A DNA stretch of 64,000 nucleotides, taken from Granulicella aggregans (GTDB lineage Bacteria; Acidobacteriota; Terriglobia; Terriglobales; Acidobacteriaceae). Each line of letters begins with the position of its first letter. Position 1 is the stretch's first letter. Location: contig NZ_JAGSYE010000002.1 in assembly GCF_025685565.1 (NCBI RefSeq), positions 1,178,001 through 1,242,000 on the forward strand, in the 5' to 3' direction. Shown here in pieces: positions 35,148 to 54,438 of the stretch. Position numbers and translations under genes: made by a program. The notes beneath the pieces were generated by a model that was given only the letters and a program-made list of their open reading frames with translations, ran no database searches and was not told where the DNA came from.

Positions 35148-35190
35148 CGGGTGCCCCATCCATCGCAGTCTCTTCGCGATGGGTGGGACG
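35148..35190 (+). repeat. Covarying hairpin repeat, copy 1 (modA-modB)
   Basis: One of eight copies of CGGGTGCCCCAT ... TGGGTGGGA. The inner stem is CATCGC/GCGATG. It lies between modA and modB, 116 bases before modB. Confidence 0.75.
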
Positions 35191-35306
35191 TAAGAAGTCG
35201 ACTCCCCCATTCATGCGGCTTCATCTTGAGTGAGAACTCGCGCGAAGCACGAACCGCCGTCCCTGCTCCCTGTTCCCTTATCCCTCAATTTAGACTTACC
35301 CACAGC

Positions 35307-35990
35307 ATGGACATCCCTGCTCTCTTCCTAACGCTGCGGCTAGCACTCTCCACCACCGCGATACTCCTGGTAATTGCGATCCCGATCGCCTGGTGGATCG
35401 CCTCCGGCTCCAGCCTCACCCGCGCGCTCACGCAAGCCATCGTCGCCCTCCCATTAGTCCTTCCCCCGACTGTCCTCGGCTTCTATCTCCTCGTAGCTCT
35501 TGGGCCGCTCACCGCTCCAGGACGCCTCATCACCCACCTGCTCGGCCACCCTCTGGCCTTCAGCTTCTCCGGACTTCTCATCGGCTCGCTCCTCTACAGC
35601 TTTCCCTTCGCCGTCCAGCCGCTGGTAGCCGGATTCACCGCCGTGGACCGCGCCTACCTCGAAGCCGCAGCTGGCCTCGGCATCCCTCCGCTTCGTCGAT
35701 TCACCAGCATCGCTGTTCCACTTACACGTGGCTCGCTCCTCACCGCCGCCGTCCTCACGTTCACTCATACGGTTGGTGAGTTCGGCGTCGTCCTCATGCT
35801 TGGCGGCAACATCCCCGGCGCCACCCGCACGCTTTCCATCGCCCTCTACGACCAGGTCCAGGACTTCAATTACGCCGCCGCCAACCGCACCGCCGCGCTT
35901 CTGCTCGGCTTCGCCCTTACCGCACTCCTCGTGATCTATCTGTTGCCGGCAAGTCGCCGCAGCAACGCCCTGCGAGACGGCCTTGCCTGA
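35307..35990 (+). CDS. modB: Molybdate ABC transporter permease
   Basis: This is a 227-residue inner-membrane permease of the ModB family with five or six helices (LRLALSTTAILLVIAIPIAW first) and the ABC-interacting loop EAAAGLGIPPLRRFTSIAVPL. The ATG at 35307 (MDIPALFLTL) is the natural start; the frame is open to 35151 but that part overlaps the intergenic repeat. It is 214 bases after modA, and it overlaps modC by eight. Confidence 0.94.
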   Translation: MDIPALFLTLRLALSTTAILLVIAIPIAWWIASGSSLTRALTQAIVALPLVLPPTVLGFYLLVALGPLTAPGRLITHLLGHPLAFSFSGLLIGSLLYSFPFAVQPLVAGFTAVDRAYLEAAAGLGIPPLRRFTSIAVPLTRGSLLTAAVLTFTHTVGEFGVVLMLGGNIPGATRTLSIALYDQVQDFNYAAANRTAALLLGFALTALLVIYLLPASRRSNALRDGLA

Positions 35991-36711
35991 TCCCCGCCCC
36001 CACCTCTCCTGCGAGATCCGGCACCGTCTCGGCACCCTCAATCTGGATGTCGCCTTCGAACTCAGCCAGCCTTGGACCGTCCTCTTCGGTCCCTCGGGTA
36101 GCGGGAAGAGCACCATCCTCCGCGCCATCGCCGGCCTCGCCAGGCCACACCACGCCAAGATCGCCCTGCATCACAACGGCAACGCTCAAACCATTTCCGA
36201 CACCAGCGCTGGCGTCTTCCTGCCACCCCACAAACGCCGAGTGCGTTGGGCTGCCCAGCACGCCGCGCTCTTCCCCCACATGACCGTCCGTGAAAACCTA
36301 CGGTATGCCACCGAGACAAGAGACGCTGACTCGGATCGAGCGGCAGACCTTGCGCTCGAACGCTTTCATTTAAAGAAGTTCGCGGACAGCAGACCAGCAA
36401 CCCTTTCTGGTGGCGAACAACAAAGAGTCTCCGTAGCCCGCGCCGCTATCGCCGCCAACGGTCGCCTGTTGCTCCTGGACGAACCCTTCACCGGCCTCGA
36501 CACCCCGCTCCGCGATGCTCTCCTCACCGACCTGCAAGAGTGGCTGGCCCTCTCGAAGACGCTCGTCCTCTCGGTAACCCACGACATCGCTGAAGCCTTC
36601 CAGCTCAACGCTGAAGTCCTCAAGCTCCACGAAGGCCGCATCCTCCAGCAGGGTCCCGCTGCTGAGGTTCTGGCCGAAGAGCGCTTACGCCTTCTTGCGC
36701 AGCTCAGCTAA
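35983..36711 (+). CDS. modC: Molybdate ABC transporter ATP-binding protein
   Basis: This is a 242-residue ABC ATPase: Walker A FGPSGSGKSTIL, signature LSGGEQQRVSVARA, Walker B LLLDEPFTGLD, and the H-loop SVTHDIAEAF. The TOBE domain often found in ModC is absent, as the protein ends after the nucleotide-binding domain. It starts with TTG inside the modB stop. With ModA and ModB it imports molybdate for molybdopterin enzymes. Confidence 0.93.
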   Translation: MPDPRPHLSCEIRHRLGTLNLDVAFELSQPWTVLFGPSGSGKSTILRAIAGLARPHHAKIALHHNGNAQTISDTSAGVFLPPHKRRVRWAAQHAALFPHMTVRENLRYATETRDADSDRAADLALERFHLKKFADSRPATLSGGEQQRVSVARAAIAANGRLLLLDEPFTGLDTPLRDALLTDLQEWLALSKTLVLSVTHDIAEAFQLNAEVLKLHEGRILQQGPAAEVLAEERLRLLAQLS

Positions 36712-36807
36712 TGCTCGTCTTAGGGTAGGGCACCCACTAACTTCGGGGCGCAAGGCAAAGTTCCCAGAATGAATGAGTTACGGAACATCCCTCTTGCAAG
36801 ATCTTGA

Positions 36808-37875
36808 TTACAGTGAACTTGCCGGGGAGCTGAGACGGCGCGAATCTCCCAGAATGACCGGTTCCTGCTCGAGCTGCACGCTGAAGCGTTCCTCTACTCG
36901 CCGCACAATCTCGTCCCGAAGTGCCACAATCTCTCCAGCCGTAGCTCCTCCGCGATTTACCACCGCCAGCGTATGACTCGAGGAGATGCCCGCCCGCCCC
37001 ATCGCAAATCCCTTGTGAAATCCCGCCTGCTCCACCAGCCACGCCGCCGCCAGCTTCACCTTTCCTTCACCAGCGTCCCAATAAGGAACTGCACCCTCCG
37101 CGGCATCGGAAATTCTTTGGAATACAGCCGAAGACACGACGGGATTCTTGAAGAACGATCCCGCGCTTCGGCAGTCCGCCTCGCCGGGAACCAGCAGCAT
37201 GCCCTTCCCATGCCGAATCTCCCGCACAGCTTGATAGACCTCCATCGGCGTCGGCGACTGCCCCTCAAACCGCCGCTGCAACTCTGCATACCTCAACTCA
37301 ACCCTGAGCCGCCGATCAAACCGGAACGTCACCGACGTCACCACATACCGCCCGCGAGCCGTCGAGTTGAAGATGCTTCGCCGATAAGCGAATCCACACT
37401 CTGCGGCGCTCAACGAGACGAACTGCATCGTCGTAAGATCAAGGGCCCGCACCGACACGATCGTCTCCGCGACCTCCTGCCCGTACGCTCCGACGTTCTG
37501 CACCGGCGTTCCGCCCACCATCCCCGGAATCCCCGCCAGGCACTCCACGCCGCTCAAGCCGCGCTCGCATGTCGCGAGCACAAACCCGTCCCAGTCCATC
37601 CCCGCAGCCGCCTCTACCTCGACCGCATCGTTTTTTTCGTCAAACGCCAGCGAACCGGCGATTTCCATCCGCAGCACCAGGCCGTGGAATCCGTTATCCC
37701 CAACCAGCAGGTTGCTGCCGCCACCCAGCACAAAGACCGGCAGCGCCTTCGCCCGCGCAAACTCCACCGCCTCCACCAGACCGCCTTCGCTGCGAACGCG
37801 AACCAGGTACTTCGCCGCCCCACCCACACCGAGCGTCGTAAGCGGCCCCAGCAAAACATTCTCTTCAATCGTCAC
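36808..37875 (-). CDS. murB: UDP-N-acetylenolpyruvoylglucosamine reductase
   Basis: This 355-residue flavoenzyme makes UDP-N-acetylmuramate for peptidoglycan. The FAD-binding part holds LTTLGVGGAAKYL and VLGGGSNLLVGDNGFHGLVL; the catalytic part has YRRSIFN, the proton-donor serine segment CRSAGSFFKNP and a C-terminal EQEPVILGD glutamate. It is a type I MurB by the Y-loop (GYEQ-like residues near AAECGFAYRRS). It stands alone, not in a mur cluster. Confidence 0.95.
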   Translation of the reverse strand: MTIEENVLLGPLTTLGVGGAAKYLVRVRSEGGLVEAVEFARAKALPVFVLGGGSNLLVGDNGFHGLVLRMEIAGSLAFDEKNDAVEVEAAAGMDWDGFVLATCERGLSGVECLAGIPGMVGGTPVQNVGAYGQEVAETIVSVRALDLTTMQFVSLSAAECGFAYRRSIFNSTARGRYVVTSVTFRFDRRLRVELRYAELQRRFEGQSPTPMEVYQAVREIRHGKGMLLVPGEADCRSAGSFFKNPVVSSAVFQRISDAAEGAVPYWDAGEGKVKLAAAWLVEQAGFHKGFAMGRAGISSSHTLAVVNRGGATAGEIVALRDEIVRRVEERFSVQLEQEPVILGDSRRLSSPASSL

Positions 37876-38031
37876 CGATTGAGACTACAACAGCCCGGCG
37901 CGCATCAGAACCCTGCTGGCGCACCGTCTCCCAGTTGGCGCGGCGTTTCCCAGTTGGCGCGGCGCTGCTCCAGCCCTTACAATCAAACGTGACGCCAGCG
38001 TTAACGGCTTGAAGAAAGCCAAGGAGAAAAC

Positions 38032-38457
38032 ATGTACCCAGAGATGATGCTGATCCCGATGCGCGAGGAACTCACCCGCGCCGGTCTCAAGGAAGCCCGC
38101 ACCGCCGCCGAAGTCGACTCCGCGCTCGCCGAACCCGGCACCACCATGCTCGTCGTCAACTCTATCTGTGGTTGCGCCGCTGGCAAGATGCGACCCGGCG
38201 TCCGCCTCGCGCTGCAGAACGCGACCCAGCCCGACCACAAGGTCACGGTCTTCGCCGGCCAGGATCGCGAAGCCACCGAGAAGGCCCGCAGCTACTTCGG
38301 TGGACACCCGCCGACCTCGCCCGCCATCGCCATCCTGCGCGACGGCCAGCTCGTTTACCTGATGCAGCGCTCGGCCATTGAAAGCTCGACTGCTCCGGCC
38401 ATCGCCCAGGAACTCGCCCGCGCCTTCGACACCTACTGCGCGAAGACCACCGCCTAA
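38032..38457 (+). CDS. Bacilliredoxin (BrxA/BrxB family, YphP-like)
   Basis: This 141-residue thioredoxin-fold protein carries the CGC motif of bacilliredoxins (VVNSICGCAAGKMRPGVRLA). BrxA/B proteins remove bacillithiol from modified cytoplasmic proteins in Firmicutes; homologues with the same motif occur in Acidobacteria. An AAGGAG precedes the ATG. The lone gene is followed by a hairpin terminator. Confidence 0.9.
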   Translation: MYPEMMLIPMREELTRAGLKEARTAAEVDSALAEPGTTMLVVNSICGCAAGKMRPGVRLALQNATQPDHKVTVFAGQDREATEKARSYFGGHPPTSPAIAILRDGQLVYLMQRSAIESSTAPAIAQELARAFDTYCAKTTA

Positions 38458-38483
38458 CCGTAACGATTCAGCACGTTCCATAG

Positions 38484-38511
38484 CGGCCGGTGCCCATTGC
38501 GGTGCCGGCCG
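38484..38511 (+). terminator. Terminator after bacilliredoxin gene
   Basis: A GC-rich stem (arms 38484-38494 and 38501-38511, two wobble pairs) with a 6-base loop is followed by TTACCTTTTG, 27 bases after the stop codon. Confidence 0.65.
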
Positions 38512-38573
38512 TTACCTTTTGTCGCCAACCCGCTCATCCCTGCGGACTTGTCTGCCGATACCGTCTTGAGCAG

Positions 38574-39734
38574 ATGAGCGAATACGACCACTCCGTCAGC
38601 ACCTCGCGAGCATACGCTCCAGCGCTCCGCCAGCACCTCGAAGATCCCGGCCTCTGTGCGCTCGAAGACTATGTCTGCCTCACCGGCGACAGCTTCGCGA
38701 TGCGCTCCCTCCGGGCCCAGCTTCGACGCGTCTCGCCCCACTTCCGTGTCGCCCTCATCACCGGCGAGACCGGAACCTGCAAGGAGACCGTCGCCCTCGC
38801 CCTCCATCGCGTCTCCGCCGACTCCGACGGCACCTTCTCTACCCACACCGCAGCCTCGCTCCTCGAACTCCTTCCCAGCGTCTCCGCCCAGGTTCGCGCC
38901 ACCCTCCGCAGCCTCGGTTCGCCGTCTCGCTCGTTCCGGCTGATCCAGTCCAATGGCGTTGCGGCCATCCTGCAAGCCGTCCCAATGCGCCCCGAGCCCG
39001 TCCCCGATCCGCGGCCTGAATTCCGGCCCGAACTCCTCCCCAACTTCACCGGCCCCGGCCGCACCCTTTTCATCCGCGGTGTGGACGAACTCTCCACCAC
39101 CCAGCAGGTCCAGCTCCGCCAGACCCTGCAGCGTCTCTCCAGCGCCCGCATCGGCCCGGAACGCCCTCGCATGATCTTCTCCGCCGGCCGCGATCTCCGT
39201 TCCCTGGCCGGTGCGGGACAATTCGACCGCAAACTCTACCGTCTGATCTCCGCCGTGGAGATCCTCATCCCCGCCCTGCGCTCCCGGCTCGAAGACATTC
39301 CCCTGATCACCTGCGCCATCCTGGGCCGCTGCACTCCCGAGGGCTGCCATCCTACGGCTGCCTTCGATGGCCGCGCCATCGCCCAGCTTCAGGCCCACGA
39401 CTGGCCCGGTAACGTTCGCGAACTCGAGCGCGTCGTCGAGCTTGCCCGTCCCCACAGCGAAGACGGCGATCCAGACTGCCCCGACGGCGTGATCGAGGCC
39501 GCGCATCTGCCTCCGCTCGGCGAGTTCGCCCAGGAAGAACGTCCCAGCCAGATCGAAGCCCGGGTCGAGCGCCTCGACGACGTCATCCACAACCACGTCC
39601 TCGACGTCCTTCTCCGCTGCAACGGCAACAAGGTCCGCGCCGCCGACCGCCTCGGTATCAGCCGGTCCACCCTCTACCGCATGCTCGAAGCTGGCTCCCC
39701 ACCCGACCGAAAAAAGCCTAACTCGGTGCCCTGA
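38574..39734 (+). CDS. NtrC-like sigma-54 activator with degenerate ATPase
   Basis: About 386 residues arranged as an AAA+ activator domain (~35-300) and a Fis-type helix-turn-helix at the C-terminus (GNKVRAADRLGISRSTLYRM). The AAA+ core is damaged: Walker A reads GETGTCKE (64-71), with cysteine for the key glycine, Walker B reads LFIRGVDEL in place of LFLDE, and the GAFTGA loop that contacts sigma-54 is missing. DWPGNVRELERVVE is kept. It can probably bind DNA but not activate sigma-54 in the usual way. There is no receiver domain. Confidence 0.8.
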   Translation: MSEYDHSVSTSRAYAPALRQHLEDPGLCALEDYVCLTGDSFAMRSLRAQLRRVSPHFRVALITGETGTCKETVALALHRVSADSDGTFSTHTAASLLELLPSVSAQVRATLRSLGSPSRSFRLIQSNGVAAILQAVPMRPEPVPDPRPEFRPELLPNFTGPGRTLFIRGVDELSTTQQVQLRQTLQRLSSARIGPERPRMIFSAGRDLRSLAGAGQFDRKLYRLISAVEILIPALRSRLEDIPLITCAILGRCTPEGCHPTAAFDGRAIAQLQAHDWPGNVRELERVVELARPHSEDGDPDCPDGVIEAAHLPPLGEFAQEERPSQIEARVERLDDVIHNHVLDVLLRCNGNKVRAADRLGISRSTLYRMLEAGSPPDRKKPNSVP

Positions 39735-39781
39735 TCGAAGCGCCGTCTCGTCGCACCACATTTAACCTCCGAGTACAACTC

Positions 39782-39830
39782 TGTGCCCCATTCATCGCGC
39801 CTCTGTCTTTCGCGATCAGTGGGTCTCGCC
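39782..39830 (+). repeat. Covarying hairpin repeat, copy 2 (before DUF885 gene)
   Basis: Variant with right end TGGGTCTCGCC. The inner stem is ATCGCG/CGCGAT. It ends 62 bases before the DUF885 start. Confidence 0.7.
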
Positions 39831-39892
39831 ACGAACGCCAGTGGCAACACTCCGCCACGATAGACTGAACTCTCATAACCTCCGAGGTCTGC

Positions 39893-41665
39893 GTGAAGAG
39901 TCTCCTCCGTTCCACTGTCGTCGCCGCCATCCTTGCCACCACCGCGCTCTTCGCATCAGCCCAGGCAGCCCCGTCCGCCGCTCAGCGCAGCAAGGACCTC
40001 GCTGCCCTCTTTCACGACATCTGGGAAGACAATCTCAAGCACTCTCCCGAGTACGCTTCCACCCTCGGCGACAAGCGCTACAACGACCAGCTCTCCGACT
40101 ACTCTGCGAGAGAAGTCAACGCCCGGCTTGAGCGTGGCCTTGGCTACATTGCACGCCTCTCGATGATAGACACCACTGGCCTCTCCGACCAGGAACAGCT
40201 CTCCGCCGACCTCATGCTTCGCTCTCTCACCGAAGAGCAGGAGGCCGCCCGCTTCAAAGAGTGGGAGATGCCGGTCGACCAGTACACCGGCTTCCATCTA
40301 TCGTTCTCGCACCTCCTCGAAAGCTTGAGCTTCGACTCCGTCAAGGACTACGACGACTACATCGCCCGCCTCAAGAAGTTGCCCTTAGCCTTCTCGCAGC
40401 AGATGACCAATATGCAGCTTGGCATCGACGAAGGCCGCATGCCGCCTCGTTACATCCTCGAAAAGGTCCTCACCCAGACCCAGTCCATCGCTGGCACAAC
40501 GGCCAAAGACAGCCTCTTCGCCGAACCGCTGAAGAAGTTTCCAAAGTCCATCACCGCAGCCGAACAGACCCGAATCTCCGCCGACCTCCTCGCCGCCGTC
40601 TCCAATGACGTCCTGCCCACCTACCAGCGCTTCGCGAAGTTCCTCTCGACGACCTACATCCCCGCCGGGCGCAAAGATCCCGGCGCATGGTCTCTCCCCG
40701 ACGGCGACGCCTACTACGCCTTCTGCGTCCGCCGCAGCACCACCCTCGACAAATCCCCAGCCGAGATCCACCAGATCGGCCTTGACGAAGTAAAGCGCGA
40801 CGAAGCCGAGATGCTCGCCATCATCCACAGACTCGGCTTCTCCGACCTGAAGACCTTCAGCGCCGCCCTCAAAGCCAACCCCAAAGAGCACCCGCAGTCG
40901 AAGCAGCAGCTCCTCGACCTCTACACCGGCTACATCGCGGCGATGAAGCCCAAGCTGCCCGAACTCTTCGGCCGCCTGCCCAAGGCACCGCTCGAAGTGA
41001 TCGCCATGCCCGACTCCATCGCTCCCGGCAGCCCGCCGGCCTACTACGACCAGGGCACCGCGGACGGCAAGCGTCCGGGCCATGTAGACGTGAACCTGCT
41101 CAACTTCTCCGACCGCCTGCTGACCAACGTCGAGGTCATCAGCTACCACGAAGGCGTCCCCGGCCATCACCTGCAGATATCCATCGGGCAGGAGCTGACC
41201 GGCCTTCCCGACTTTCGCAAGCAGTCTTCCTACACCGCTTTTGTTGAAGGCTGGGCGCTGTACAGCGAACGCCTCGGTAAGGAGATCGGCTTCTACCAGG
41301 ACCCCTATAGCGACTACGGCCGCGTCGAAGCCGACATGTGGCGGGCAATCCGATTGGTCGTGGACACCGGCGTCCACTCCCAGCACTGGACTCGTCAGCA
41401 GGTCATCGACTACTTCCATGAGAACTCCGCCATCGACGAGCCCACCGTTCAGTCCGAGACCGACCGCTACATCGCGTGGCCCGGGCAGGCACTCGGCTAC
41501 AAGATGGGGCAGTTGAAGATCCTAGAACTACGCAAGCGCGCGCAGGATGCCCTCGGCCCGAAGTTCAACCTGAAAGCCTTCCACGACGAAGTCCTCGACT
41601 CAGGCGCTCTACCGTTGGATGTTCTCGACAAACGCATCACGGCTTGGATCGCCACGCAGAAGTAA
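39893..41665 (+). CDS. DUF885 family exported protein (probable metallo-hydrolase)
   Basis: This 590-residue protein starts at GTG and has a signal peptide (LLRSTVVAAILATTALFASA). DUF885 proteins are helical gluzincin-like enzymes; the zinc motif HEGVPGHHLQIS is at 419-430 and a likely third ligand glutamate lies in FVEGWALYSERLGKE. The family is common and often multi-copy in Acidobacteria. It is probably a periplasmic peptidase, but the substrate is unknown. A palindromic repeat precedes the gene. Confidence 0.9.
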   Translation: MKSLLRSTVVAAILATTALFASAQAAPSAAQRSKDLAALFHDIWEDNLKHSPEYASTLGDKRYNDQLSDYSAREVNARLERGLGYIARLSMIDTTGLSDQEQLSADLMLRSLTEEQEAARFKEWEMPVDQYTGFHLSFSHLLESLSFDSVKDYDDYIARLKKLPLAFSQQMTNMQLGIDEGRMPPRYILEKVLTQTQSIAGTTAKDSLFAEPLKKFPKSITAAEQTRISADLLAAVSNDVLPTYQRFAKFLSTTYIPAGRKDPGAWSLPDGDAYYAFCVRRSTTLDKSPAEIHQIGLDEVKRDEAEMLAIIHRLGFSDLKTFSAALKANPKEHPQSKQQLLDLYTGYIAAMKPKLPELFGRLPKAPLEVIAMPDSIAPGSPPAYYDQGTADGKRPGHVDVNLLNFSDRLLTNVEVISYHEGVPGHHLQISIGQELTGLPDFRKQSSYTAFVEGWALYSERLGKEIGFYQDPYSDYGRVEADMWRAIRLVVDTGVHSQHWTRQQVIDYFHENSAIDEPTVQSETDRYIAWPGQALGYKMGQLKILELRKRAQDALGPKFNLKAFHDEVLDSGALPLDVLDKRITAWIATQK

Positions 41666-41667
41666 GG

Positions 41668-42279: not shown

Positions 42280-42477
42280 CTCTAAGTGATTGCCCTGCTA
42301 CTCGGCTCGGCATCGTGGCAATATATCAGACACGACTTTTCTGGCCATGCGGGTGCGCAACCAATAGTTCATAGATACAGAACTAATGAATCTCGAGAAT
42401 CGCCGCCACCATCCATTCAACTGAACGCACGCCGGGCAACAAAGTTCAAACGCAGCAGACAAATCAGGAGAATCGCA

Positions 42478-43209: not shown

Positions 43210-43221
43210 CCTCAACAACTC

Positions 43222-43265
43222 TGGGTATCCCATATCTGGCAGCTTCATCGCCAGATGTGGGAGCC
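43222..43265 (+). repeat. Covarying hairpin repeat, copy 3 (before proC)
   Basis: A diverged copy with a long stem, CCCATATCTGGC/GCCAGATGTGGG (one wobble). It ends 29 bases before proC. Confidence 0.7.
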
Positions 43266-43294
43266 CAGGCGTCTCAGTCTGATAGCCTTTCCAG

Positions 43295-44158: not shown

Positions 44159-44172
44159 CCCTCTCTTGGTTC

Positions 44173-44205
44173 GTCATTCTGAGCGAAGCGAAGAATCCCC
44201 GCATT
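44173..44205 (+). repeat. GTCATTCTGAGCGAAGCGAAGAATC repeat (before ctaA)
   Basis: A copy of a second repeat type, also found at 51152-51180 and 53183-53210 and in weaker form near 30486. The TTCTGAGC start and GAAGAATC core are conserved. It is followed at once by copy 4 of the other family. Confidence 0.65.
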
Positions 44206-44228
44206 CGCTTTGGCCCTGCAACAAGAAT

Positions 44229-44270
44229 CGGGTGCCCCATCCATGCGGTTTCCCCGCATGGGTGGGACGG
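44229..44270 (+). repeat. Covarying hairpin repeat, copy 4 (before ctaA)
   Basis: The inner stem is CCATGCGG/CCGCATGG with loop TTTC. It ends 36 bases before ctaA. Confidence 0.75.
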
Positions 44271-45855: not shown

Positions 45856-48183
45856 TTACTTCCCCACCACCTCCACCGTAGCCCCGGTCCCGCTCAACTT
45901 CCCAGCCGCATCATCCCACTTCAACTTCGTCACCTCGAACTTGCCCTGTTCATACGCATACGTCTTGCCATCATCGTTATAAAGTTCGAAGCTCGCATCC
46001 GATCCCGGATACACCTTTACCTTCGCGATCTTCTGCACCTCGTTCGTGCTCTCTACATAGGAGCCCATGGGCAGAATCGACCCCGCTTTCACAAACAGCG
46101 GCAGCGTATCAATCGGCGCATTGACGGAGATCGTCTGCCCGCCATGCACCTTCTCGTTCGTCCAGAAGTTGTACCAGTCCGTCCCCGCCGGCAGATAAAC
46201 CTCGCGTGTCGTCACGCCCTGCTCGGTCACTGGAGCCACCAGCACCGCCGGGCCAAACATGTACTCATCGCCAATGTTCGCCACCTTCGGATCGTCGCCA
46301 AAGTCCATGAACAGGCCACGCATAAAGGGCGCTCCCGTCATATGCGTCTTGTAGCCAAGCGAGTAGATATACGGCATCAACTCATACCGCAGCTTCAGAT
46401 ACTTCTCCAGGATCGGCTCCGCCTGCTTGCCATACGACCACACCTCGTTGAACTTGCGTCCGCCGTGGGTGCGGAAGTTAGGCTGAAACGCTCCGTACTC
46501 GAACCACCGTGTGTAGAGCTCCGGATAGTCATCGTAGTGATTGACATTCTCGCGAGCGTCCGAAGGATCGAGCAGCGGCGTCCGCTCTGGCTTGTGGAAG
46601 TACGGAATGTCCTGCCATCCGCCAATGTCGGTGCTCCAGTAGGGCGACCCCGAAGCCACAAAGTTGATGCCCGTCGGCACCTGCCGCTTCAGCACGTCCC
46701 AGGTCGGGCTGATGTCCGACGACCAGAAGATCGCCCCGTTATGCTGCGCTCCAAGATACGAGTCACGAGCCAGAATCAGCGCCCGCTCCTTCATGTCGCG
46801 CCTCATCCCGTTGTAGAACGCAGCGGTATGAAACAGCGGATAGACGTTGAAGAACTGCGTCCCCGGCCCAACATGGAAGTAGCTGTTGCCAGGGCTAAGG
46901 TCCGGCTCCGTCTCATCCGCCCAGAACGCGTCGAAGCCCTTCTTCACATAGTTCTCGTTCACTATGTTCCAGTACCACTTCGCCGCGTCGGGATTCGTCG
47001 TATCGATGTCCGATCCAGCGAGGTCATACGGCAGTCCATTGGTCGGCGTGCCATCGGCCAGCTTCTCAAACCAGTCGTTCTTCTTGATCGTGTCGTAGAA
47101 CCGGCTCTCCGGAACAAAACGCGGCCACACGCTGATCATCACGTGGAAGTTCATCGCGTGCAGCTCTTTGTTCATCTCCACCGGGTCCGGCCACATCGCG
47201 GGGTCCATGTCCATCTGGCCCATCTTCGTGTACGTAAACCAGTCGATCACCAGGTCATCGATCGGCAGATGCCGGTCGCGATATCCCTTCGCCACGGCAA
47301 GAATCTCCGCCTGGCTCCGATACCTCTGCTTGCACTGGATATATCCATACGCCGACTTCGGCAGCATGGGCGTATCCCCCGTGAGCAACCGGTAACCCTC
47401 GTAGATCTCGTCATACGTCTTACCCGCAATCACGAAGAACGAGACCCGCTGCCCCACGTCCGACACGAAGTTCGTCGAGTCGTTGAACGCGAAGCTGGCC
47501 GTGGTCTTCGATGGGTTGTCCCACAGAATTCCATAGCCCTTATTTGTAACCACGAAAGGCACACATACGCTTTGCCCGCCAGGAGCGTTGTAGTCATGCT
47601 CGCAATGCACGACGTGTCCACGCCGGTCGAGGTAGCCTTCCTGGTTCTGCCCCAGCCCATAGTAGTGCTCGTCTTTTTGCGCGGAGAAGTTAGCACCCAC
47701 GGTAAAGAAAGGCTTGTCCGTCGGACGGCGGTCGTACTCAACGTCATATGTTCCGTCTTTGTGGTTCGGGATCGCCATCTGCCATCCGCCCATATCCACA
47801 AGCGTCTTTCCCTCCGGCGTCTTGAAGCTGATCCCCACATACGGCGCGGAACCCGAGAAGAACTTAGAAGTCTCGGGCATCGGGCCGCCTGGGTGTGGCG
47901 GCGGAGTCACCGTCACCACCATCCGCGACGACCGCAGCACATCTCGCTCTCCATCCTTCGCAATCGACCATCCCTCCGGCATCGCCTTCGCGACGATCCC
48001 GTACCCCGGCGCAGCCAGTGCCTCCTCCTTCATCAGGCTCAGAGTCACACGCACGACATTCGGCGCGTACGGCTCGACCATCACCGTCGATTTGCCTCGT
48101 TCCAGCGTCAACTTCTGTGCCGGGACTGTCGAAGTTGCAAGGAAAGTTCCAAGAAGGGACGCTGCTAAAACGATTTTTGTCAT
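45856..48183 (-). CDS. Glycoside hydrolase family 31 (alpha-xylosidase/alpha-glucosidase type)
   Basis: This exported enzyme of about 775 residues starts at ATG 48183 with a signal peptide (KIVLAASLLGTFLATSTVPA). GH31 features are the beta-barrel nucleophile segment GFDAFWADETEPDLSPGN, DLVIDWFTYTKMG, the NHYDDYPELYTRWFEYGAFQ region, and a C-terminal beta domain (VLVAPVTEQGVTTREVYLPA). Its EPD nucleophile context is close to alpha-xylosidases. It diverges from the GH35 gene and sits with GH2 and a LacI regulator, so plant or microbial glycan degradation is likely. Confidence 0.92.
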   Translation of the reverse strand: MTKIVLAASLLGTFLATSTVPAQKLTLERGKSTVMVEPYAPNVVRVTLSLMKEEALAAPGYGIVAKAMPEGWSIAKDGERDVLRSSRMVVTVTPPPHPGGPMPETSKFFSGSAPYVGISFKTPEGKTLVDMGGWQMAIPNHKDGTYDVEYDRRPTDKPFFTVGANFSAQKDEHYYGLGQNQEGYLDRRGHVVHCEHDYNAPGGQSVCVPFVVTNKGYGILWDNPSKTTASFAFNDSTNFVSDVGQRVSFFVIAGKTYDEIYEGYRLLTGDTPMLPKSAYGYIQCKQRYRSQAEILAVAKGYRDRHLPIDDLVIDWFTYTKMGQMDMDPAMWPDPVEMNKELHAMNFHVMISVWPRFVPESRFYDTIKKNDWFEKLADGTPTNGLPYDLAGSDIDTTNPDAAKWYWNIVNENYVKKGFDAFWADETEPDLSPGNSYFHVGPGTQFFNVYPLFHTAAFYNGMRRDMKERALILARDSYLGAQHNGAIFWSSDISPTWDVLKRQVPTGINFVASGSPYWSTDIGGWQDIPYFHKPERTPLLDPSDARENVNHYDDYPELYTRWFEYGAFQPNFRTHGGRKFNEVWSYGKQAEPILEKYLKLRYELMPYIYSLGYKTHMTGAPFMRGLFMDFGDDPKVANIGDEYMFGPAVLVAPVTEQGVTTREVYLPAGTDWYNFWTNEKVHGGQTISVNAPIDTLPLFVKAGSILPMGSYVESTNEVQKIAKVKVYPGSDASFELYNDDGKTYAYEQGKFEVTKLKWDDAAGKLSGTGATVEVVGK

Positions 48184-48242
48184 AAGGGGTTTCCCACAAC
48201 AATCTAAACCGCGAAAGACATCTCTGTACAGACACGAACGCC

Positions 48243-48281
48243 CGGGTGCCCCATCCATGCCCTCTCATCGCATGGTCGGGA
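48243..48281 (+). repeat. Covarying hairpin repeat, copy 5 (before GH35)
   Basis: The inner stem is CCATGC/GCATGG. It ends 12 bases before the first possible GH35 start. Confidence 0.7.
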
Positions 48282-48293
48282 AGCAGAAAGTCC

Positions 48294-49934
48294 ATGCGAA
48301 AATCTGCGAAGATACTCCCTATGCTTCGCACAACCATCGCCGCACTCGCCCTCGCCGCGACCCTCCATGCCCAGGCACCTCAGAAGACTCCGCGCAACCC
48401 CATGCCCGCCCTCGTCGAACGCGACGGTCGCTTCGCCCTCATGGTTGACGGAGCCCCGTACCTGATGCTCGCCACGCAGGTGAACAACTCTTCGGCGTTC
48501 GCAGCGACGATGCCCGAGGTCTGGCCCGCCGCCGAGCAGTTGCACATCAACACCCTCGAAGCTCCCGTCTACTGGGAGACCATGGAGACAACCCCAGGCC
48601 ACTTCGACTTCGCCCAGGTCGACATGCTCATCGACCAGTCCCGCCAGCACAACGTCCGCCTGGTGCTGCTCTGGTTCGGCACCTGGAAGAACGGCAGCGG
48701 CCACTACTTGCCGCAGTGGATGAAGCTGGATGAACAGAAGTACCCTCACGTCGTCACCGCCAAGGGCGTCGCCGTGGATTCGCTCTCGCCGCACTCGAAG
48801 TTCACTCTCGAAGCCGACAAGCGAGCCTTCACCGCACTCATGCGGCACCTGAAGGAAAAAGACCCGCAGCACACCGTCATCATGGTGCAGGTAGAGAACG
48901 AGTCGGGCACCTACGGTACCGTCCGCGACCACTCCGCCACCGCCGACGCGCTCTTCGCGCAGCAAGTCCCGGATGTTGCGTTGAAAGCCATGGGCAAGTC
49001 GCAGTCCGGCACCTGGCAGCAGGTCTTCGGCGACGATGCTGACGGCATCTTCCACTCCTGGTACGTCGCCAGTTACATCCAGCAGGTCGCCGCCGCGGGC
49101 AAGGCAGAGTATCCGCTCCCCTTCTACGCCAACGCCGCCCTCCGCGATCCCATCCACCCTGGCAAGCAGGGCAGTTGGGAATCCGGCGGCCCCACCGACG
49201 ACGTGCTCGCCCTGTGGAAGGCCGCCGCCCCCAGCATCGACGTCCTCGCCCCCGACATCTACATGGACGAACACAAGAAGTACACGGCGGTCCTCGACCT
49301 CTACTCCCGTCCCGACAACGCTCTCATGGTGCCCGAGACCGGCAACTCCTCCGACTTCGCCCGCTTCTGCTTCGAGGCCATCGGCCACGGCTCGCTAAGC
49401 TGGTCACCCTTCGGCATGGACTTCACCGGATACGCCAACTATCCCAACGGCGCCGCGAAGATCGATGACAAGCTGCTGAAGCAGTTCAGCTTCAACTTCG
49501 CCGATCTCGCTCCGATCTCCCGCCTCATCGCCCGGCTCAACTTCGAGGGCAGGGTCAAAGGCGTAGCGGAAGACGAAGCGCCTGACGCAAAGCACGTCCA
49601 GCGCCTCGACTTCGGTGACTGGACCGCCGTCATCTCCTACGGCCTGCCCCAGTTTGGCGGATGGACGCCCGCACCCGGCAACAAGCCCCCTACCGGCGAG
49701 GCCCTCGTCGCCCAGCTAGGCCCCAACGAGTTCCTCGTCACCGCCTACAACGCCCGCGTCGACTTCGAACCCAAGGCGCCGGGCAAGCAGCGCCAGTGGC
49801 TCGCCGTCGAAGAAGGCAACTACACCGGCCAAAAGTGGAATCGGGCACGTATATGGAACGGCGACCAGTCTGACTACGGCCTCAACTTCCTCACCGGGCC
49901 GCAACTGCTCAAAGTCACCGTCGCCACCTACTGA
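48294..49934 (+). CDS. Glycoside hydrolase family 35 beta-galactosidase, exported
   Basis: About 546 residues; start at 48294 or 48321 (MLRTTIAALALAATLHAQAP is the signal peptide either way). GH35-type features are the N-terminal MLATQVNNSSAFAATMPEVW, TLEAPVYWETMETTPGHFDF, the acid/base VQVENESGTYG and the nucleophile in LMVPETGNSSDFARF. The C-terminal part matches proteins with a DUF5597 domain. The protein should release terminal beta-galactose outside the cytoplasm. A palindromic repeat ends 12 bases before the first start. Confidence 0.88.
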   Translation: MRKSAKILPMLRTTIAALALAATLHAQAPQKTPRNPMPALVERDGRFALMVDGAPYLMLATQVNNSSAFAATMPEVWPAAEQLHINTLEAPVYWETMETTPGHFDFAQVDMLIDQSRQHNVRLVLLWFGTWKNGSGHYLPQWMKLDEQKYPHVVTAKGVAVDSLSPHSKFTLEADKRAFTALMRHLKEKDPQHTVIMVQVENESGTYGTVRDHSATADALFAQQVPDVALKAMGKSQSGTWQQVFGDDADGIFHSWYVASYIQQVAAAGKAEYPLPFYANAALRDPIHPGKQGSWESGGPTDDVLALWKAAAPSIDVLAPDIYMDEHKKYTAVLDLYSRPDNALMVPETGNSSDFARFCFEAIGHGSLSWSPFGMDFTGYANYPNGAAKIDDKLLKQFSFNFADLAPISRLIARLNFEGRVKGVAEDEAPDAKHVQRLDFGDWTAVISYGLPQFGGWTPAPGNKPPTGEALVAQLGPNEFLVTAYNARVDFEPKAPGKQRQWLAVEEGNYTGQKWNRARIWNGDQSDYGLNFLTGPQLLKVTVATY

Positions 49935-49951
49935 TCGCCGAAGTCTGTCGA

Positions 49952-51118
49952 TCAACGCTTCGCTCGCGCCACCTTCAGCGCTGGCTTTGCCTCATGCACC
50001 TCGGATCGCGCTTTCGCCACAGCCACCTTCGCCGCTCCCGAAGACTCGCGCACCATCAGCTCCGGCTCGAACGTCATCTCCTCCGGATACGCCTCGTGAG
50101 GCTTTGCAATCCGCTTCACCAGCAACTGCGCCGCCGCCTCGCCCATCTTGTGCAGCGGCTGACGAATCGTCGTCAAACTTGGGGTCTGGTACATCGCGCT
50201 CGCAATATCGTCGAACCCCACCACCGACACATCTCCCGGCACCGACAACCCCACATCCGCCAGCGCCCGCACCGCTCCAATCGCCGCAATATCGTTAAAA
50301 CTGAAGATCGCCGTGAAATCTCGCGTCTTCGTCAGCAGGTCGCGAATCACCGGATACCCCAGCTCCGGCGACGATGAGTTCGCCTCCAGATACACGCAAA
50401 GCTCCGGATGTACCGGCACCCCCATCGCCTTGGCCATCTTCAGGATGCTCTCCCACCGCGTCTCGGAGTCGGGAATATGCTTCTGCCCCTTCATGAACAC
50501 AATCCGCTTATGTCCCTGGTCGCGCAGATGCTTCAACGCTAGCGCAGCCGATCGATCGTGATCGAGCACGATATTGCTTACGCCCTTCATCCTCTTGTGC
50601 CCGGAGATCGACACTACCGGCTGATTCACAGTCTCGTTCAGCGTCGTATTGACCAGGATGAATCCATCCACCGCCCGCTTGATCAGCAGCCGCGGATACT
50701 CGTCGATCAGGTCCGCCCGTCCCTGGTGGCACAGCACCATGTAGATGTAGCCCGCCTCCATCAGCGTCCGCTCCACGCCGTTCATCACCATGGTGAAGTA
50801 GCCTTCGCTCAACTCCGGCACGATCACTCCGATCGTCAGCGTCTGCCGCATCCGCAGCGACCGAGCGATGGTATTGGGTCTATAGTCCAACTTCTTCGCC
50901 GCGGCCAGCACCCGCTCCCGCGTCGCCGGGGCGATCGACTTCGCCCCCGGAGCATCGTTCAACACAATCGAAACCGTCGCCGGCGACAGATCCAGATACT
51001 CCGCCATCACCTTCAGGTTGACCGGCCGGTTCTCTGTTGGCTTCTCGGGTTTTTCTTTCGGCTTCTCTGGTTTCAAAGTCATGGCCGATCCTATCTCGCC
51101 AGCTTCCAGATCGTCCAT
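49952..51118 (-). CDS. LacI-family transcriptional regulator
   Basis: Up to 388 residues (a start at 51082, MTLKPEKP, is equally possible). The helix-turn-helix is near residues 38-60 (LKVMAEYLDLSPATVSIVLN) with the hinge ATRERVLAAAKKLDYRPNTIARSL, followed by a periplasmic-binding-type sugar domain ending ESSGAAKVAVAKA. A lysine/proline-rich linker precedes the HTH. It lies between the GH35 and GH2 genes and probably controls them in response to a sugar. The gene diverges from GH2. Confidence 0.92.
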   Translation of the reverse strand: MDDLEAGEIGSAMTLKPEKPKEKPEKPTENRPVNLKVMAEYLDLSPATVSIVLNDAPGAKSIAPATRERVLAAAKKLDYRPNTIARSLRMRQTLTIGVIVPELSEGYFTMVMNGVERTLMEAGYIYMVLCHQGRADLIDEYPRLLIKRAVDGFILVNTTLNETVNQPVVSISGHKRMKGVSNIVLDHDRSAALALKHLRDQGHKRIVFMKGQKHIPDSETRWESILKMAKAMGVPVHPELCVYLEANSSSPELGYPVIRDLLTKTRDFTAIFSFNDIAAIGAVRALADVGLSVPGDVSVVGFDDIASAMYQTPSLTTIRQPLHKMGEAAAQLLVKRIAKPHEAYPEEMTFEPELMVRESSGAAKVAVAKARSEVHEAKPALKVARAKR

Positions 51119-51151
51119 CTCAATTCCACTCGCCTCTGTCCGTTACCCGCC

Positions 51152-51180
51152 GTCATTCTGAGCGAAGCGAAGAATCCCGA
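51152..51180 (+). repeat. GTCATTCTGAGC repeat (LacI / GH2 gap)
   Basis: A copy of the second repeat type in the divergent gap between the LacI-family and GH2 genes, near-identical to the one at 44173. Confidence 0.65.
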
Positions 51181-51247
51181 CGAACCCAATCCCACCCGAA
51201 CCGCTCGAACCTTTCTGCCCACACCCAAAGTTGGCGCCATAAAAACG

Positions 51248-51258
51248 TGGTCAGACCA
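51248..51258. promoter_or_regulatory. Palindromic operator candidate upstream of the GH2 gene
   Basis: TGGTCAGACCA is an 11-base palindrome with a single central base, 33 bases before the GH2 start, in the gap shared with the LacI-family gene. It matches the TGGTNNNACCA pattern known for FadR-type GntR regulators, not a typical CG-centred LacI site, so another regulator may act here. Confidence 0.45.
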
Positions 51259-51291
51259 ATTTGGCGTACTATTTCCACGACGACTTTATCC

Positions 51292-53115
51292 ATGAAAATC
51301 CTAAATCTAGCCCTCGCCGCCCTCATCTCCGCCTCTGCCGCCGCCCAATCCACCCCCACCGTCCTCGTAGACGTCGACCACCGCACCGCCCAGTCCCTCA
51401 ACGGCGCTTGGCACTACATCCTAGACCCTTACTCCGCCGGCCTCTCCGACTTCCAGGGCGGCATCAACAAGCACGGCTTCTTCGAGAACCGCGAGCCCGA
51501 AGCCAACTCCAACAACACCGCCAACAACGGCTTGATCGAGTACAGCTTCGCTCGGTCCCCCGTCGTCAAAGTCCCCGGCGACTGGAACACCCAGAACATC
51601 GCCCTACTCAACTACGAGGGACTCTTCTGGTACCAGCGCGACTTCGAGTTCACCCCGAAGGCAGGCGAACGCACCTTCATCCACATCGGTGCCGCCAACT
51701 ACCGCGCTCGCGTCTTCATCAACGGTCAGCACATCTGCGATCACGAAGGCGGCTTCACGCCGTTCGACTGTGACGCCACCGCCGCGCTCAAGCCGGGCAA
51801 GAACTTCGCCGTCATCGCCGTCGACGACACCCGCCTGGCCGACGGTATCCCAACGCTGAAGACCGACTGGTACAACTACGGTGGCCTGACACGTGACGTC
51901 TCTCTCGTCACCGTCCCGAACACCTTCATCGACGACTACGACCTCCACCTGAGCCGCGCGGATCACAAGACCATCGAAGGCTACGTCCACGTCGTGGATG
52001 CTCCCGCAGACACCAAGGTCCATGTGTCCATCCCTGAAGCCCATGTCGATCTCAACACCACGACTGACGCCACTGGCCGCGCCGTCATCTCCATCGCTCC
52101 CGCCAGCCTAGATCTCTGGGCCCCCGGCAACCCCAAGCTCTATAAAGTCGAACTCGCATCCGGCTCAGACAAGCTCACCGATGAGATCGGCTTCCGCACC
52201 ATCGAAGTCTCCGGCACCCACATCCTCCTCAATGGCAAGCCCATCGCCCTCAACGGCATCAACGTTCACGCCGAAGCCCCCATTCGAGGCGGTCGCGCCA
52301 ACACCGACGCCGACGTTAAAACCCTCTTCGACTGGCTCCAGCAGCTCAACTGCAACTTCGTCCGCCTCGCCCACTACCCCCACGACGAACGCATGACCCG
52401 CGAAGCCGACCGCCGCGGAATCCTGGTCTGGAGCGAGGTCCCCGTCTACTGGGCCGTCCACTTCGACGACCCCGCCCTCCTCGTCAAAGCCAAGCAGCAG
52501 CTAGGCGAAAACATCCGCCGCGACCACAACAAGGCCTCCGTCATCCTCTGGTCCATCGCCAACGAGACGCCGAACATCCCCGCCCGCACCGCGTTCCTTA
52601 CCAAACTCGCGGATTACGCGCATGAACTCGACTCGACCCGTCTCGTCACCGCAGCTCTTCTCGTGCGCGGAGAAGGCGATACCAAGATCGTCGACGACCC
52701 GCTCGGCAAAGCGCTCGACGTCCTCGGCACCAACGAGTACGCCGGCTGGTACGAGATGTCCCCCGAGAAGATCCCGAACGTCAAATGGGACATCCGCTAC
52801 GACAAGCCCGTCATCATGAGCGAGTTCGGCGGCGGCGCCAAGGCCGGCCTCCACGGCCCCGAGACCCAGCGCTGGACGGAAGAATTCCAGGCCGCCATCT
52901 ACCGCAACCAGATCACCATGCTCAGCAAGATTCCCCAGCTCCGCGGAACCACCCCCTGGCTACTGATGGACTTCCGCTCTCCCGTGCGCCTGTTGCCCGG
53001 AGTGCAGGACGGCTTCAATCGCAAGGGTCTGATCGCCCCCAACGGACAGAAGAAGCTGGCATTCTCTGTCCTGCAAAAGGCTTACAAAGAAAACGCCGTC
53101 GCCAAACCTGAATAG
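51292..53115 (+). CDS. Glycoside hydrolase family 2 (beta-galactosidase/glucuronidase type)
   Basis: About 607 residues from ATG 51292 with a signal peptide (KILNLALAALISASAAAQ). GH2 order is visible: an N-terminal jelly-roll (~20-200, SLNGAWHYILDPY), an immunoglobulin-like domain (~200-300), then a TIM barrel (~300-600) with HYPHDERM, the acid/base WSIANETPN and the nucleophile VIMSEFGGG. The short length resembles beta-glucuronidase/LacZ-like short forms. With GH31 and GH35 it suggests breakdown of a mixed glycan. A palindromic operator lies upstream. Confidence 0.92.
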   Translation: MKILNLALAALISASAAAQSTPTVLVDVDHRTAQSLNGAWHYILDPYSAGLSDFQGGINKHGFFENREPEANSNNTANNGLIEYSFARSPVVKVPGDWNTQNIALLNYEGLFWYQRDFEFTPKAGERTFIHIGAANYRARVFINGQHICDHEGGFTPFDCDATAALKPGKNFAVIAVDDTRLADGIPTLKTDWYNYGGLTRDVSLVTVPNTFIDDYDLHLSRADHKTIEGYVHVVDAPADTKVHVSIPEAHVDLNTTTDATGRAVISIAPASLDLWAPGNPKLYKVELASGSDKLTDEIGFRTIEVSGTHILLNGKPIALNGINVHAEAPIRGGRANTDADVKTLFDWLQQLNCNFVRLAHYPHDERMTREADRRGILVWSEVPVYWAVHFDDPALLVKAKQQLGENIRRDHNKASVILWSIANETPNIPARTAFLTKLADYAHELDSTRLVTAALLVRGEGDTKIVDDPLGKALDVLGTNEYAGWYEMSPEKIPNVKWDIRYDKPVIMSEFGGGAKAGLHGPETQRWTEEFQAAIYRNQITMLSKIPQLRGTTPWLLMDFRSPVRLLPGVQDGFNRKGLIAPNGQKKLAFSVLQKAYKENAVAKPE

Positions 53116-53258
53116 CGACAGCGATACCGGCTTTTTTGTTTGTCATTCCCAAAGGGAATCTGCGTTTGTATTTGTTCTTGCCGTCATTCTGAGCGCAGTG
53201 AAGAACCCGCCACACCGATCGCATCACACAATCCATCCGAAGCTTTCCGCCACAAATC

Positions 53259-53358
53259 CGGGTGCCCCACATCTCGATTCTGAGATGTGGGCTCATCCCA
53301 GCCACAAACCCGTGCCCCATTCATCGCGCCGTTGTCTCACGCGATGAGTGGGTCTCGC
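53259..53358 (+). repeat. Covarying hairpin repeats, copies 6 and 7 (GH2 / rpiA)
   Basis: Two copies stand side by side. Copy 6 (53259-53293) has a 10-bp stem CCCACATCTC/GAGATGTGGG. Copy 7 (53310-53358) has a 13-bp stem with one wobble (CCCATTCATCGCG / CGCGATGAGTGGG). A GTCATTCTGAGC copy is just upstream, at 53183-53210. Confidence 0.75.
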
Positions 53359-53365
53359 CACAACC

Positions 53366-54058
53366 CTACCCCTGCATCTCCGTAACCCCGTCATCCCCAG
53401 CCACGAGGGCCATCGCCGCCATCCCCAGAAACAACCCATGCTCCACCACGCCGACGATCCCGCGAACCTCCGCCGCCGTCTCCTCCGGATTCTCGATCAC
53501 CCCCGCCGCGCAATCCAGAATGTAATTCTTCTCATCCGTAAGATAAACCGACCCGTCCGCCTTCTTCCTCTGCTTCGGATTCAGCCCCAGCACCGTCAGC
53601 TTGCCTTCCACCAGCGGCAGCGCCATCTTGATGACCTCAATCGGCAACGGAAACTTCCCCAACTTCTCCACCACCTTCGTCGAATCGACGACCACGATGA
53701 ACTTCTTCGCCGAGCTGGCAACGATCTTCTCCCTCAGCAACGCTCCGCCGCCGCCTTTGATGAGCGCCAGACTGCCGTCGGAATCCCGCGCAACCTCATC
53801 CGCGCCGTCGATATAAACATCGACCTCCGGCAGCTCCGCCAGCGACACCACCTCCAGGCCGAGCGATTGCCCCAGCTCCTGGCTCGCATCGGACGATGCC
53901 ACGCACCGGATCTTGATGCCCGTGGCCTTCACCTTCGCGCCGAGCTCTTCGATAAACATCCGCGACGTAGACCCTGTCCCAAGCCCAACGGCCATGCCGT
54001 CCTCAACAAACTCCACCGCCCGCTTCGCCACCAGCCGCTTCGCTTCGTCCTGTGTCAT
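53366..54058 (-). CDS. rpiA: Ribose-5-phosphate isomerase A
   Basis: This 230-residue isomerase of the pentose phosphate pathway has VGLGTGSTSRMFIEELG, the DGADEVARD acidic pair, the catalytic KGGGGALLREKI and the C-terminal GIVGVVEHGLFLGMA. It is a single gene convergent with GH2; two palindromic repeats lie between. The start at 54058 gives the usual length. Confidence 0.95.
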   Translation of the reverse strand: MTQDEAKRLVAKRAVEFVEDGMAVGLGTGSTSRMFIEELGAKVKATGIKIRCVASSDASQELGQSLGLEVVSLAELPEVDVYIDGADEVARDSDGSLALIKGGGGALLREKIVASSAKKFIVVVDSTKVVEKLGKFPLPIEVIKMALPLVEGKLTVLGLNPKQRKKADGSVYLTDEKNYILDCAAGVIENPEETAAEVRGIVGVVEHGLFLGMAAMALVAGDDGVTEMQG

Positions 54059-54438
54059 CTCGTCCCCTTCTCAGACCACCAGTAAACAGTAAACCAGCCA
54101 ATGCCCGGGTGCACCATCCATGCAGCTTTATCGCATGGGTGGGAAATTCGCGCCACGAGCGAACTATTTTCTTCCCGAACCAGCACAATCCCACCGAAGA
54201 TGCACCATACGCGTACCCAACAATCACATTCCCGCGCTATACTTGCCCGCAAGGGGGCATGGACAATGCGCATCGCAAAGCTTCTCGCAGCCACCATACC
54301 CTCCCACTCCCGCCCGAACCTCTTCGGCGACTAACTCCCCACAAAATTCAGCCTCAAGCGAGCCCTTCCTTCAAAGGAACCGGCACCACGCAGCGATCTC
54401 CCAACCGCGCCCGAACTCCGTTCCGGCAGGAGCATCCC
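54059..54438. other. Intergenic region rpiA / aminotransferase
   Basis: 380 bases separate these divergent genes. It holds one palindromic repeat copy at 54105-54144 and no gene I can support. Upstream frames open into the aminotransferase but lack start signals. Confidence 0.5.
54105..54144 (+). repeat. Covarying hairpin repeat, copy 8 (before aminotransferase)
   Basis: The inner stem is CCATGC/GCATGG. It is in the rpiA/aminotransferase gap. Confidence 0.7.

Follow-up and report, generated by a model that had tools for sequence, protein, structure and literature searches.

The 64,000-nucleotide stretch of Granulicella aggregans DNA analysed here (G000:C2:1178001-1242000, hereafter called the window; the host genome, labelled G000, is 5.74 Mb in 14 contigs) contains eight short hairpins, every one on the + strand, which belong to a high-copy repeat family with an unpaired 5' GTGC foot. 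Copies of this family outside inverted pairs are locked to the replication strand, GTGC lying nearly always on the locally C-rich (lagging-sense) strand, and of the lock itself there is hardly any doubt. Judged from sequence, the repeats are very probably repetitive extragenic palindromic (REP) type repeats linked to the REP-associated tyrosine transposases (RAYTs) of an acidobacterium, because of the copies that flank the transposase genes, the protein family and a conserved geometry. The explanation preferred overall, with moderate confidence, is that these RAYT-linked REPs multiply as single-stranded DNA which enters the nascent lagging strand.

The eight hairpins are listed below, with the state of the orthologous place in genomes G036 and G015 where given; this comparison covers six of the eight copies (all except 35151 and 48246).

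35151..35187, + strand: REP hairpin type A (ATCCATCGC/GCGATGGGT), GTGC foot; tandem gap 34316-35092(+) / 35307(+); covariance model
39783..39823, + strand: REP hairpin type B (ATTCATCGCG); covariance model; same type in G036
43225..43261, + strand: REP hairpin type C (ATATCTGGC/GCCAGATGT), foot GTAT; covariance model; type B there in G036 and G015
44232..44266, + strand: REP hairpin type A (ATCCATGCGG); covariance model; type B there in G036, decayed stretch in G015
48246..48280, + strand: REP hairpin type A, 3' arm decayed; covariance model; divergent gap 45856-48081(-) / 48321(+)
53262..53291, + strand: REP hairpin, perfect stem CCCACATCTC/GAGATGTGGG; a gap in G036
53312..53352, + strand: REP hairpin type B; covariance model; present in G036, decayed in G015
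54109..54143, + strand: REP hairpin type A, GTGC then ACCA; covariance model; different hairpin-like sequence in G036

The original prediction, made from the letters of the window, had described eight hairpins of one orientation, and all eight were confirmed. The left word which it took to be shared by all of them, GTGCCCCA, is exact in six, the copies at 43225 and 54109 having one- or two-base variants (GTATCCCA and GTGCACCA, respectively). Two more GTGCCCCA words in the window, at 7691 and 29174, are without a right arm, and the exact count of eight compares with a mean of 2.1 and a maximum of 5 in shuffled sequence. Regular expressions for the outer motif were tried as copy finders and replaced by a covariance model, the loose version giving 229 matches against 205 in shuffled DNA and the stricter version 101 against 25. 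The covariance model (R1), built from 24 sequences, recovered seven of the eight window hairpins; the eighth, at 53262-53291, was one of the training sequences and has a perfect 10-bp stem visible by eye, its omission probably being due to overlap of its span with the neighbouring copy.

The model was applied to a systematic sample of 1.66 Mb, consisting of 80 systematically sampled 20-kb stretches from contigs C1-C3 and the window, in which the 94 best of 143 rows were kept (the remainder being mostly opposite-strand shadows) and one overlap was removed, leaving 93 distinct copies. Extrapolated from this sample, the genome has roughly 300 copies. Another 20 stretches of G000, picked deliberately and not at random (origin, RAYT loci, switches, other contigs), contributed the 66 best of 69 rows, giving 159 G000 copies altogether. 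The 14-mer GGTGCCCCATYCAT matched 235 places in G000 with at most one mismatch, its reversed control none. Matches were found in 37/37 same-genus genomes searched, the host included, and in 2/24 genomes outside the genus, with 1 to at least about 90 matches per genome within the genus (draft genomes included).

Strand was scored from the GC skew within 5 kb of each copy, with REP copies masked, on the assumption that the leading strand is G-rich. In the systematic sample GTGC was on the locally C-rich strand in 89/93 copies, whereas the local gene strand agreed with copy orientation in just 54/93; the orientation bias that the original prediction had sought relative to genes is thus strong, but it follows the replication strand. 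With the chosen stretches included, 146/151 of the G000 copies outside inverted pairs were locked, and 131/133 at |skew|>0.1. Genes in skewed regions, called with a simple codon-usage caller written for this analysis, were on the G-rich strand in 391/782 cases in G000 and in 74/163 in a second species, G011, which together with the 54/93 agreement rules out gene strand as the cause of the orientation. The skew is a property of the physical strand, since its sign at fourfold sites reverses with gene strand (in negative regions -0.51 for + genes and, in the sense direction, +0.41 for - genes). Copy density increased with skew, being 11 per Mb where |skew| was below 0.05 and 159 per Mb where it exceeded 0.2. 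The cores themselves are near balance (GC skew -0.085), and base composition therefore fails to explain the lock.

Skew and orientation switch together within C1:900-920k, where the skew rises from about -0.3 to +0.26 with a zero crossing near C1:909.7k, and where copies are on the + strand up to 904.5k (the last) and on the - strand from 910.7k (the first). The genes of this stretch, which we take to be rsmG, parA and parB, are accompanied by eight parS words, and on gene content the stretch is assigned as oriC, around which REP copies are dense though uneven. The ribosomal L2 gene and the 16S rRNA gene each lie on the locally G-rich strand (measured over 20 kb for L2, and weakly so for 16S), consistent with a G-rich leading strand. 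Away from the origin, copy orientation and skew reverse together several times, which reads as inversions or draft contig order. Contigs C1-C3 are a mosaic of strongly skewed domains (fourfold skew about 0.4-0.55) and unskewed ones with several sign changes, which suggests inversions and acquired DNA. Single or paired parS words were found in four further stretches; a lone word at L059:10080 (C1:1530080), near another +/- copy switch (about C1:1.527-1.534 Mb), is perhaps a moved origin-proximal piece.

The lock was also found in other genomes. In G011, for which 147 copies remained after filtering of the 148 best of 150 aligned (157 matches), 80/88 copies outside inverted pairs were locked, 70/73 at |skew|>0.1, and the orientation switches at this species' own rsmG-parA-parB-parS locus. 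The lock held in 15/15 loci of G022 and for 27/27 central best copies in 27 other genomes, scored on 3-kb loci by the central (best) copy only, some of these loci holding more copies on either strand and two having |skew| ≤0.01. Because the genomes share ancestry, the counts across them represent non-independent insertions. The G011 copies with the three commonest identical cores were locked in 27/27 cases (19/19 at |skew|>0.1), which argues that polarity is set at insertion rather than by a later purge.

A search with PF01797 gave three genes in G000, all of them above the cut-off of NCBIfam NF047646 (REP-associated tyrosine transposase). RAYT1 matches PDB 4er8 (TnpArep, E=2.6e-6) and is 51 % identical to RAYT2; H61-V62-H63 and Y118 (RAYT1 numbering) are common to both and are presumably the catalytic residues. 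The original prediction had proposed a search for such a transposase, and both genes indeed lie between inverted REP copies with the GTGC feet outward, RAYT1 between one CCATGAC-type and one CCGTCGCG-type copy, the inner arms of which differ, and RAYT2 between two ATATCTGGC-type copies. In the 3.3-kb locus of the third gene of the family (L032:1453-1914) the covariance model found no match. For the best 80 of 116 RAYT relatives from named genomes, the flanks were scored with all 214 matches of the model at E values of at most 0.1. Here 42/60 acidobacterial loci had a copy within 300 bp on each side in the same geometry, 15 had one on one side and 3 had none; the 20 other loci, two of them without a named phylum, had copies on both sides once (weak), on one side once and on neither side in 18 cases. 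A stricter count with the 150 best of the 214 matches gave 34/60 and 0/20, respectively, and in these 34 loci the two hairpins of one locus were more alike (0.86) than in any of 2000 permutations (maximum 0.79).

The both-sided locus among the others, L269 (QZKQ01000077.1), is that of a Zixiibacteriota RAYT relative. Its two flanking matches, arranged as in the acidobacterial loci, are weak (E 0.0026 and 0.01) and hint at a hairpin plan that extends beyond Acidobacteria. A contig labelled Verrucomicrobia (L218, CAJCIP010000041.1) encodes a 57 % identical RAYT and has several REP copies, and represents either a transfer or a mis-binned contig.

The repeat unit consists of the near-invariant unpaired 5' GTGC foot, a stem of 10-13 bp in which a T.G mismatch usually occurs close to the base, and a partly conserved 3' linker. 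Each base of the foot is conserved in 96-98 % of the 93 copies, and GTGC was also present in most of the RAYT-locus hairpins examined. The stem base is CCCA/TGGG, with an adjacent T in 81/93 copies and an opposite G in 82/93; the T.G pair, found in 55/69 aligned copies, recurs in RAYT loci of other species. The covarying arms which had been noticed in the window were also found in 69 aligned copies from 20 other stretches: pair cells were paired in 94.6 % of cases against 81.6 % when shuffled, 9/13 stem pairs changed on both sides, and both-side changes occurred in 103 cells against 28 shuffled and at most 10 with the arms slid, in an alignment that was fitted to the model and includes one training-set copy and one opposite-strand shadow. 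Because of this fitting and the relatedness of the copies, part of the covariation consists of differences between inner-arm sub-types, A (ATCCAT), B (ATTCAT) and C (ATATCTGG), which have spread as copies. The selection on structure first proposed is therefore plausible, but many of the arm differences separate such copy-spread sub-types, and recognition by the RAYT, not gene control, would thus be the most direct source of constraint. Over-long REP copies were observed at L040:12070-12167, L052:16041-16138, L132:8760-8857 and, in G011, L201:10901, and the loop of those examined contains an extra long hairpin (e.g. GTCCCCGGCGAACGCTCTTTGTTCGCTGGGG), suggestive of a further element at that position.

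Single copies dominate in G000, where 8/159 copies are in inverted pairs, the remainder are nearly all singlets and direct pairs, and 3/4 adjacent inverted pairs have their feet inward. In G011 there are 29 adjacent inverted pairs, in each of which the feet point outward and the starts are 83-172 bp apart, and the copies of this species outside inverted pairs are less diverse (50 distinct cores among 88) than those in pairs (53 among 59). No partner remnant was found beside any of 130 isolated G000 singlets, and 4/48 G011 singlets had a second-copy remnant downstream and 1/48 upstream, so that singlets as halves of former inverted pairs left no trace in G000 and a weak one in G011. At orthologous places in G036, in which the P5CR gene is 97 %, rpiA 94 % and the DUF885 gene 80 % identical to those of the window, the copies at 39783 and 53312 are of the same type, and a different hairpin stands in place of those at 43225, 44232 and 54109. 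The copy at 53262, which adjoins an older copy in the same orientation, is without a counterpart. New copies may thus insert beside existing ones or replace them.

A short, imperfect, intergenic, high-copy hairpin and the gene of an HUH single-tyrosine enzyme flanked by copies are among the features by which RAYT-associated repeats are recognised, and both were found. The likeness to the GTAG REPs of Escherichia and Pseudomonas, which form REPtrons with their RAYTs, extends in the published descriptions consulted (PMC3733652, PMC6006769) to short high-copy intergenic hairpins, an unpaired 5' foot and a RAYT flanked by copies. The present repeats differ in their foot, GTGC, which lies outside the GT[AG]G definition, in the predominance of single copies, which are the less diverse class in G011, and in being locked to the replication strand. 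An Rfam search of the window gave nothing above gathering score except one tRNA, so that the hairpins, which the original prediction had proposed to check against described families, match neither an Rfam family nor the GTAG definition.

In the account of Di Nocera et al. (2013, PMC3733652), in the part available, the RAYT-like genes of T. saanensis, K. versatilis, A. capsulatum and G. mallensis are one inverted-repeat-flanked group, and in K. versatilis one of three makes up a repeat family. From that description RAYT1 and RAYT2 probably belong to this acidobacterial TIRYT/TIR group. Compared by description, the GGGGWSAS motif of some TIRs has no exact match in GGGGCACC (complement strand) here, a one-base-gap variant being possible, and the available part of the paper mentions no replication lock such as that found here. 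Class 3 TnpA-Y1 repeats (Quentin et al. 2018, PMC6006769), as described there in outline, likewise are high-copy atypical hairpins by a Y1 gene in Acidobacteria, but are set apart by their foot, CnGA instead of GTGC, whereas the present proteins pass the REP transposase model. Inverted repeats beside acidobacterial RAYT-like genes, and atypical hairpins beside class 3 Y1 genes, had thus already been described, and what appears to be new is a REP-type repeat with a GTGC foot whose lone copies are replication-strand-locked.

REPINs (Bertels & Rainey 2011, PMC3116915) are resembled by the 29 outward-facing inverted pairs of G011. In P. fluorescens, according to the part of that study consulted, it is the pairs that replicate, singlets being remnants; here the cores outside pairs are the less diverse ones, and the inverted doublet is not the predominant unit in either species, with 8/159 copies paired in G000. 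The nearest precedent for polarity in the same source is that of the tandem arrays of SBW25, whose direction is forward near 2 Mb and reverse near 4 Mb. Among the open-access titles listed by the literature searches, none on REP orientation relative to replication turned up. IS200/IS605 elements (IS608, ISDra2) share, in the description available (PMC6006769), an HUH single-tyrosine enzyme, single-stranded hairpins and replication-linked insertion. They use the lagging-strand template, whereas the footed strand here has the opposite polarity (146/151 lagging-sense), the GTGC strand being taken as the active one.

In the mechanism that we propose, the RAYT, an HUH tyrosine enzyme, would act on single-stranded DNA, recognising both the mismatched hairpin and its GTGC foot, and would release or join one strand. 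The released strand would then become part of the nascent lagging strand, for instance at an Okazaki-fragment gap, to which it would be joined or anneal, and would enter beside or in place of an existing copy. With lagging-strand entry the GTGC strand of new lone copies would be identical with the nascent lagging strand (the leading-strand template), and a single strand entering lagging-strand synthesis is the simplest picture of the polarity observed. According to PMC3733652, REP DNA in single-stranded form is cut in vitro by an E. coli RAYT. The insertion mechanism, with its single-stranded intermediate, lagging-strand entry and the RAYT as agent, is put forward tentatively, as a nearly even matter. 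More tentative still is the genus-wide generalisation that short repeats, REPs and at least one other, enter only the nascent lagging strand, so that every new lone copy has one polarity relative to the fork, and that copies already present can be overwritten in place by other hairpin types.

The spread of REPs is poorly understood and, to our knowledge, REP movement has rarely been caught. Lone copies whose orientation follows the replication strand, and reverses at oriC in two species, would be evidence from genomes that spreading is tied to the fork, and the lock, by naming the strand, makes this question testable. Singlets, called remnants in Pseudomonas, are suggested as a possible mobile unit. 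If the proposal is true, genome repeats would hold a readable record of fork direction, and repeat polarity could help to flag inversions and origins in acidobacterial drafts.

Several observations weigh against lagging-strand entry driven by the RAYT. Copies in inverted pairs of G011 show no lock (30/59). The dnaA gene is 52 kb from the skew switch, on the - strand and inside the + skew region, and the origin was assigned on sequence features. The polarity, if the GTGC strand is the active one, is the reverse of the lagging-strand template use of IS200/IS605. In E. coli K-12 near oriC (about 202 kb) 14 REP matches included 6+/3- to the right and 3+/2- to the left, showing no lock among these few matches to a REP consensus. 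Balanced intergenic 8-mers are also biased (18 words, i.e. 9 complementary pairs, with a mean of 0.81 on the commoner strand). A REP-unrelated repeat, TCATTCTGAGCGAAGCGAAGAATC, is locked equally strictly, in 15/15 cases away from REPs in G000. Because this repeat and the balanced 8-mers are strand-biased, the lock may stem from something other than the RAYT. Copies of this second repeat family in the window are:

44172..44199, + strand: second repeat family CGTCATTCTGAGCGAAGCGAAGAATCCC, directly upstream of a REP
51151..51178, + strand: second repeat family CGTCATTCTGAGCGAAGCGAAGAATCCC, no nearby REP
53182..53209, + strand: second repeat family CGTCATTCTGAGCGAAGCGAAGAATCCC, upstream of the REP pair

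The same family was also seen in L195-L202, often beside REPs.

The alternative that survives best, although we consider it rather unlikely, is that the lock is a host process in which any short single-stranded DNA fragment is preferentially built into lagging-strand synthesis, the RAYT merely supplying REP strands; such generic entry would lock several repeat families. It agrees with the biased 8-mers and with the second repeat TCATTCTGAG, which is locked in 36/36 cases at |skew|>0.1 in two genomes (40/43 at any skew), 15 of these copies lying apart from REPs. On the other hand this repeat is often beside REPs (6/21 in G000 and 15/15 in G011 at |skew|>0.1) and may be mobilised along with them.

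A purge after insertion is less probable again. REPs would insert either way, and those with GTGC in the lagging-strand template would be cut by the RAYT or lost by hairpin slippage. The weaker skew around G011 inverted pairs (median |skew| 0.096 for 59 copies, against 0.156 for the 88 others) and the second-copy remnants kept by some G011 singlets would fit such losses, but identical-core copies are already locked in all cases, and none of the isolated G000 singlets shows any trace of a former partner. Where the T.G position has C, so that stem stability is about equal on both strands, copies are equally locked (14/14 in G000 and 11/11 in G011), which also leaves stem stability unsupported as a driver of orientation-dependent loss.

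That the hairpins are selected polar signals, marking replication direction for a host system such as a translocase, the primosome or chromosome packing, is improbable. Their strict polarity, their dense though uneven occurrence near oriC and the keeping of places between species while the hairpin type differs would be expected of signals, whereas the range from 1 to at least about 90 matches among genomes of the genus (drafts included), the sparseness of copies in weakly skewed DNA and the copies that flank their own transposases would not.

The original prediction had also placed the hairpins mostly just before start codons, and in the window five of the eight do end 33-119 bases, by the present gene calls, upstream of + gene starts (35307, 39893, 43295, 44307 and 48321). 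The open reading frame 53348-54085(+) had no Pfam match and its opposite-strand counterpart 53366-54058(-) is rpiA by Pfam, so that the copies at 53262 and 53312 sit between convergent genes. Beyond the window the preference was absent. Of the 151 G000 copies outside inverted pairs, 5 were within called genes and 8 at stretch edges, and the 138 in gaps comprised 42 convergent, 17 divergent and 79 tandem cases. A position bias thus exists, but as enrichment in convergent gaps (42/138 copies against 169/993 gaps, or 22 % of gap bases; Fisher p=4e-4 on gaps) and depletion in divergent ones (17/138 against 226/993 gaps, or 25 % of gap bases; p=0.004). The systematic sample alone gave 28 convergent and 14 divergent of 86. 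As convergent gaps are favoured and divergent ones disfavoured sample-wide, the run of copies ahead of + genes in the window is local. Control of genes by the hairpins, as 5' untranslated region elements or terminators, is therefore very improbable in spite of the five copies before + genes and the covarying stem, as copies avoid divergent gaps, tandem copies are opposite to the gene direction in 43 cases and the same in 36, no Rfam family matches and orientation tracks replication; a promoter or 5' untranslated region role is likewise unsupported by these gene-context counts.

The first part of the window, 1-24000, has a lower GC content (0.54-0.56), a GC skew of about 0 and no covariance-model match, and adjoins a tRNA gene, 23470-23541(-); it looks like an acquired island. 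Strong skew begins directly after this segment, and the REPs follow further on.

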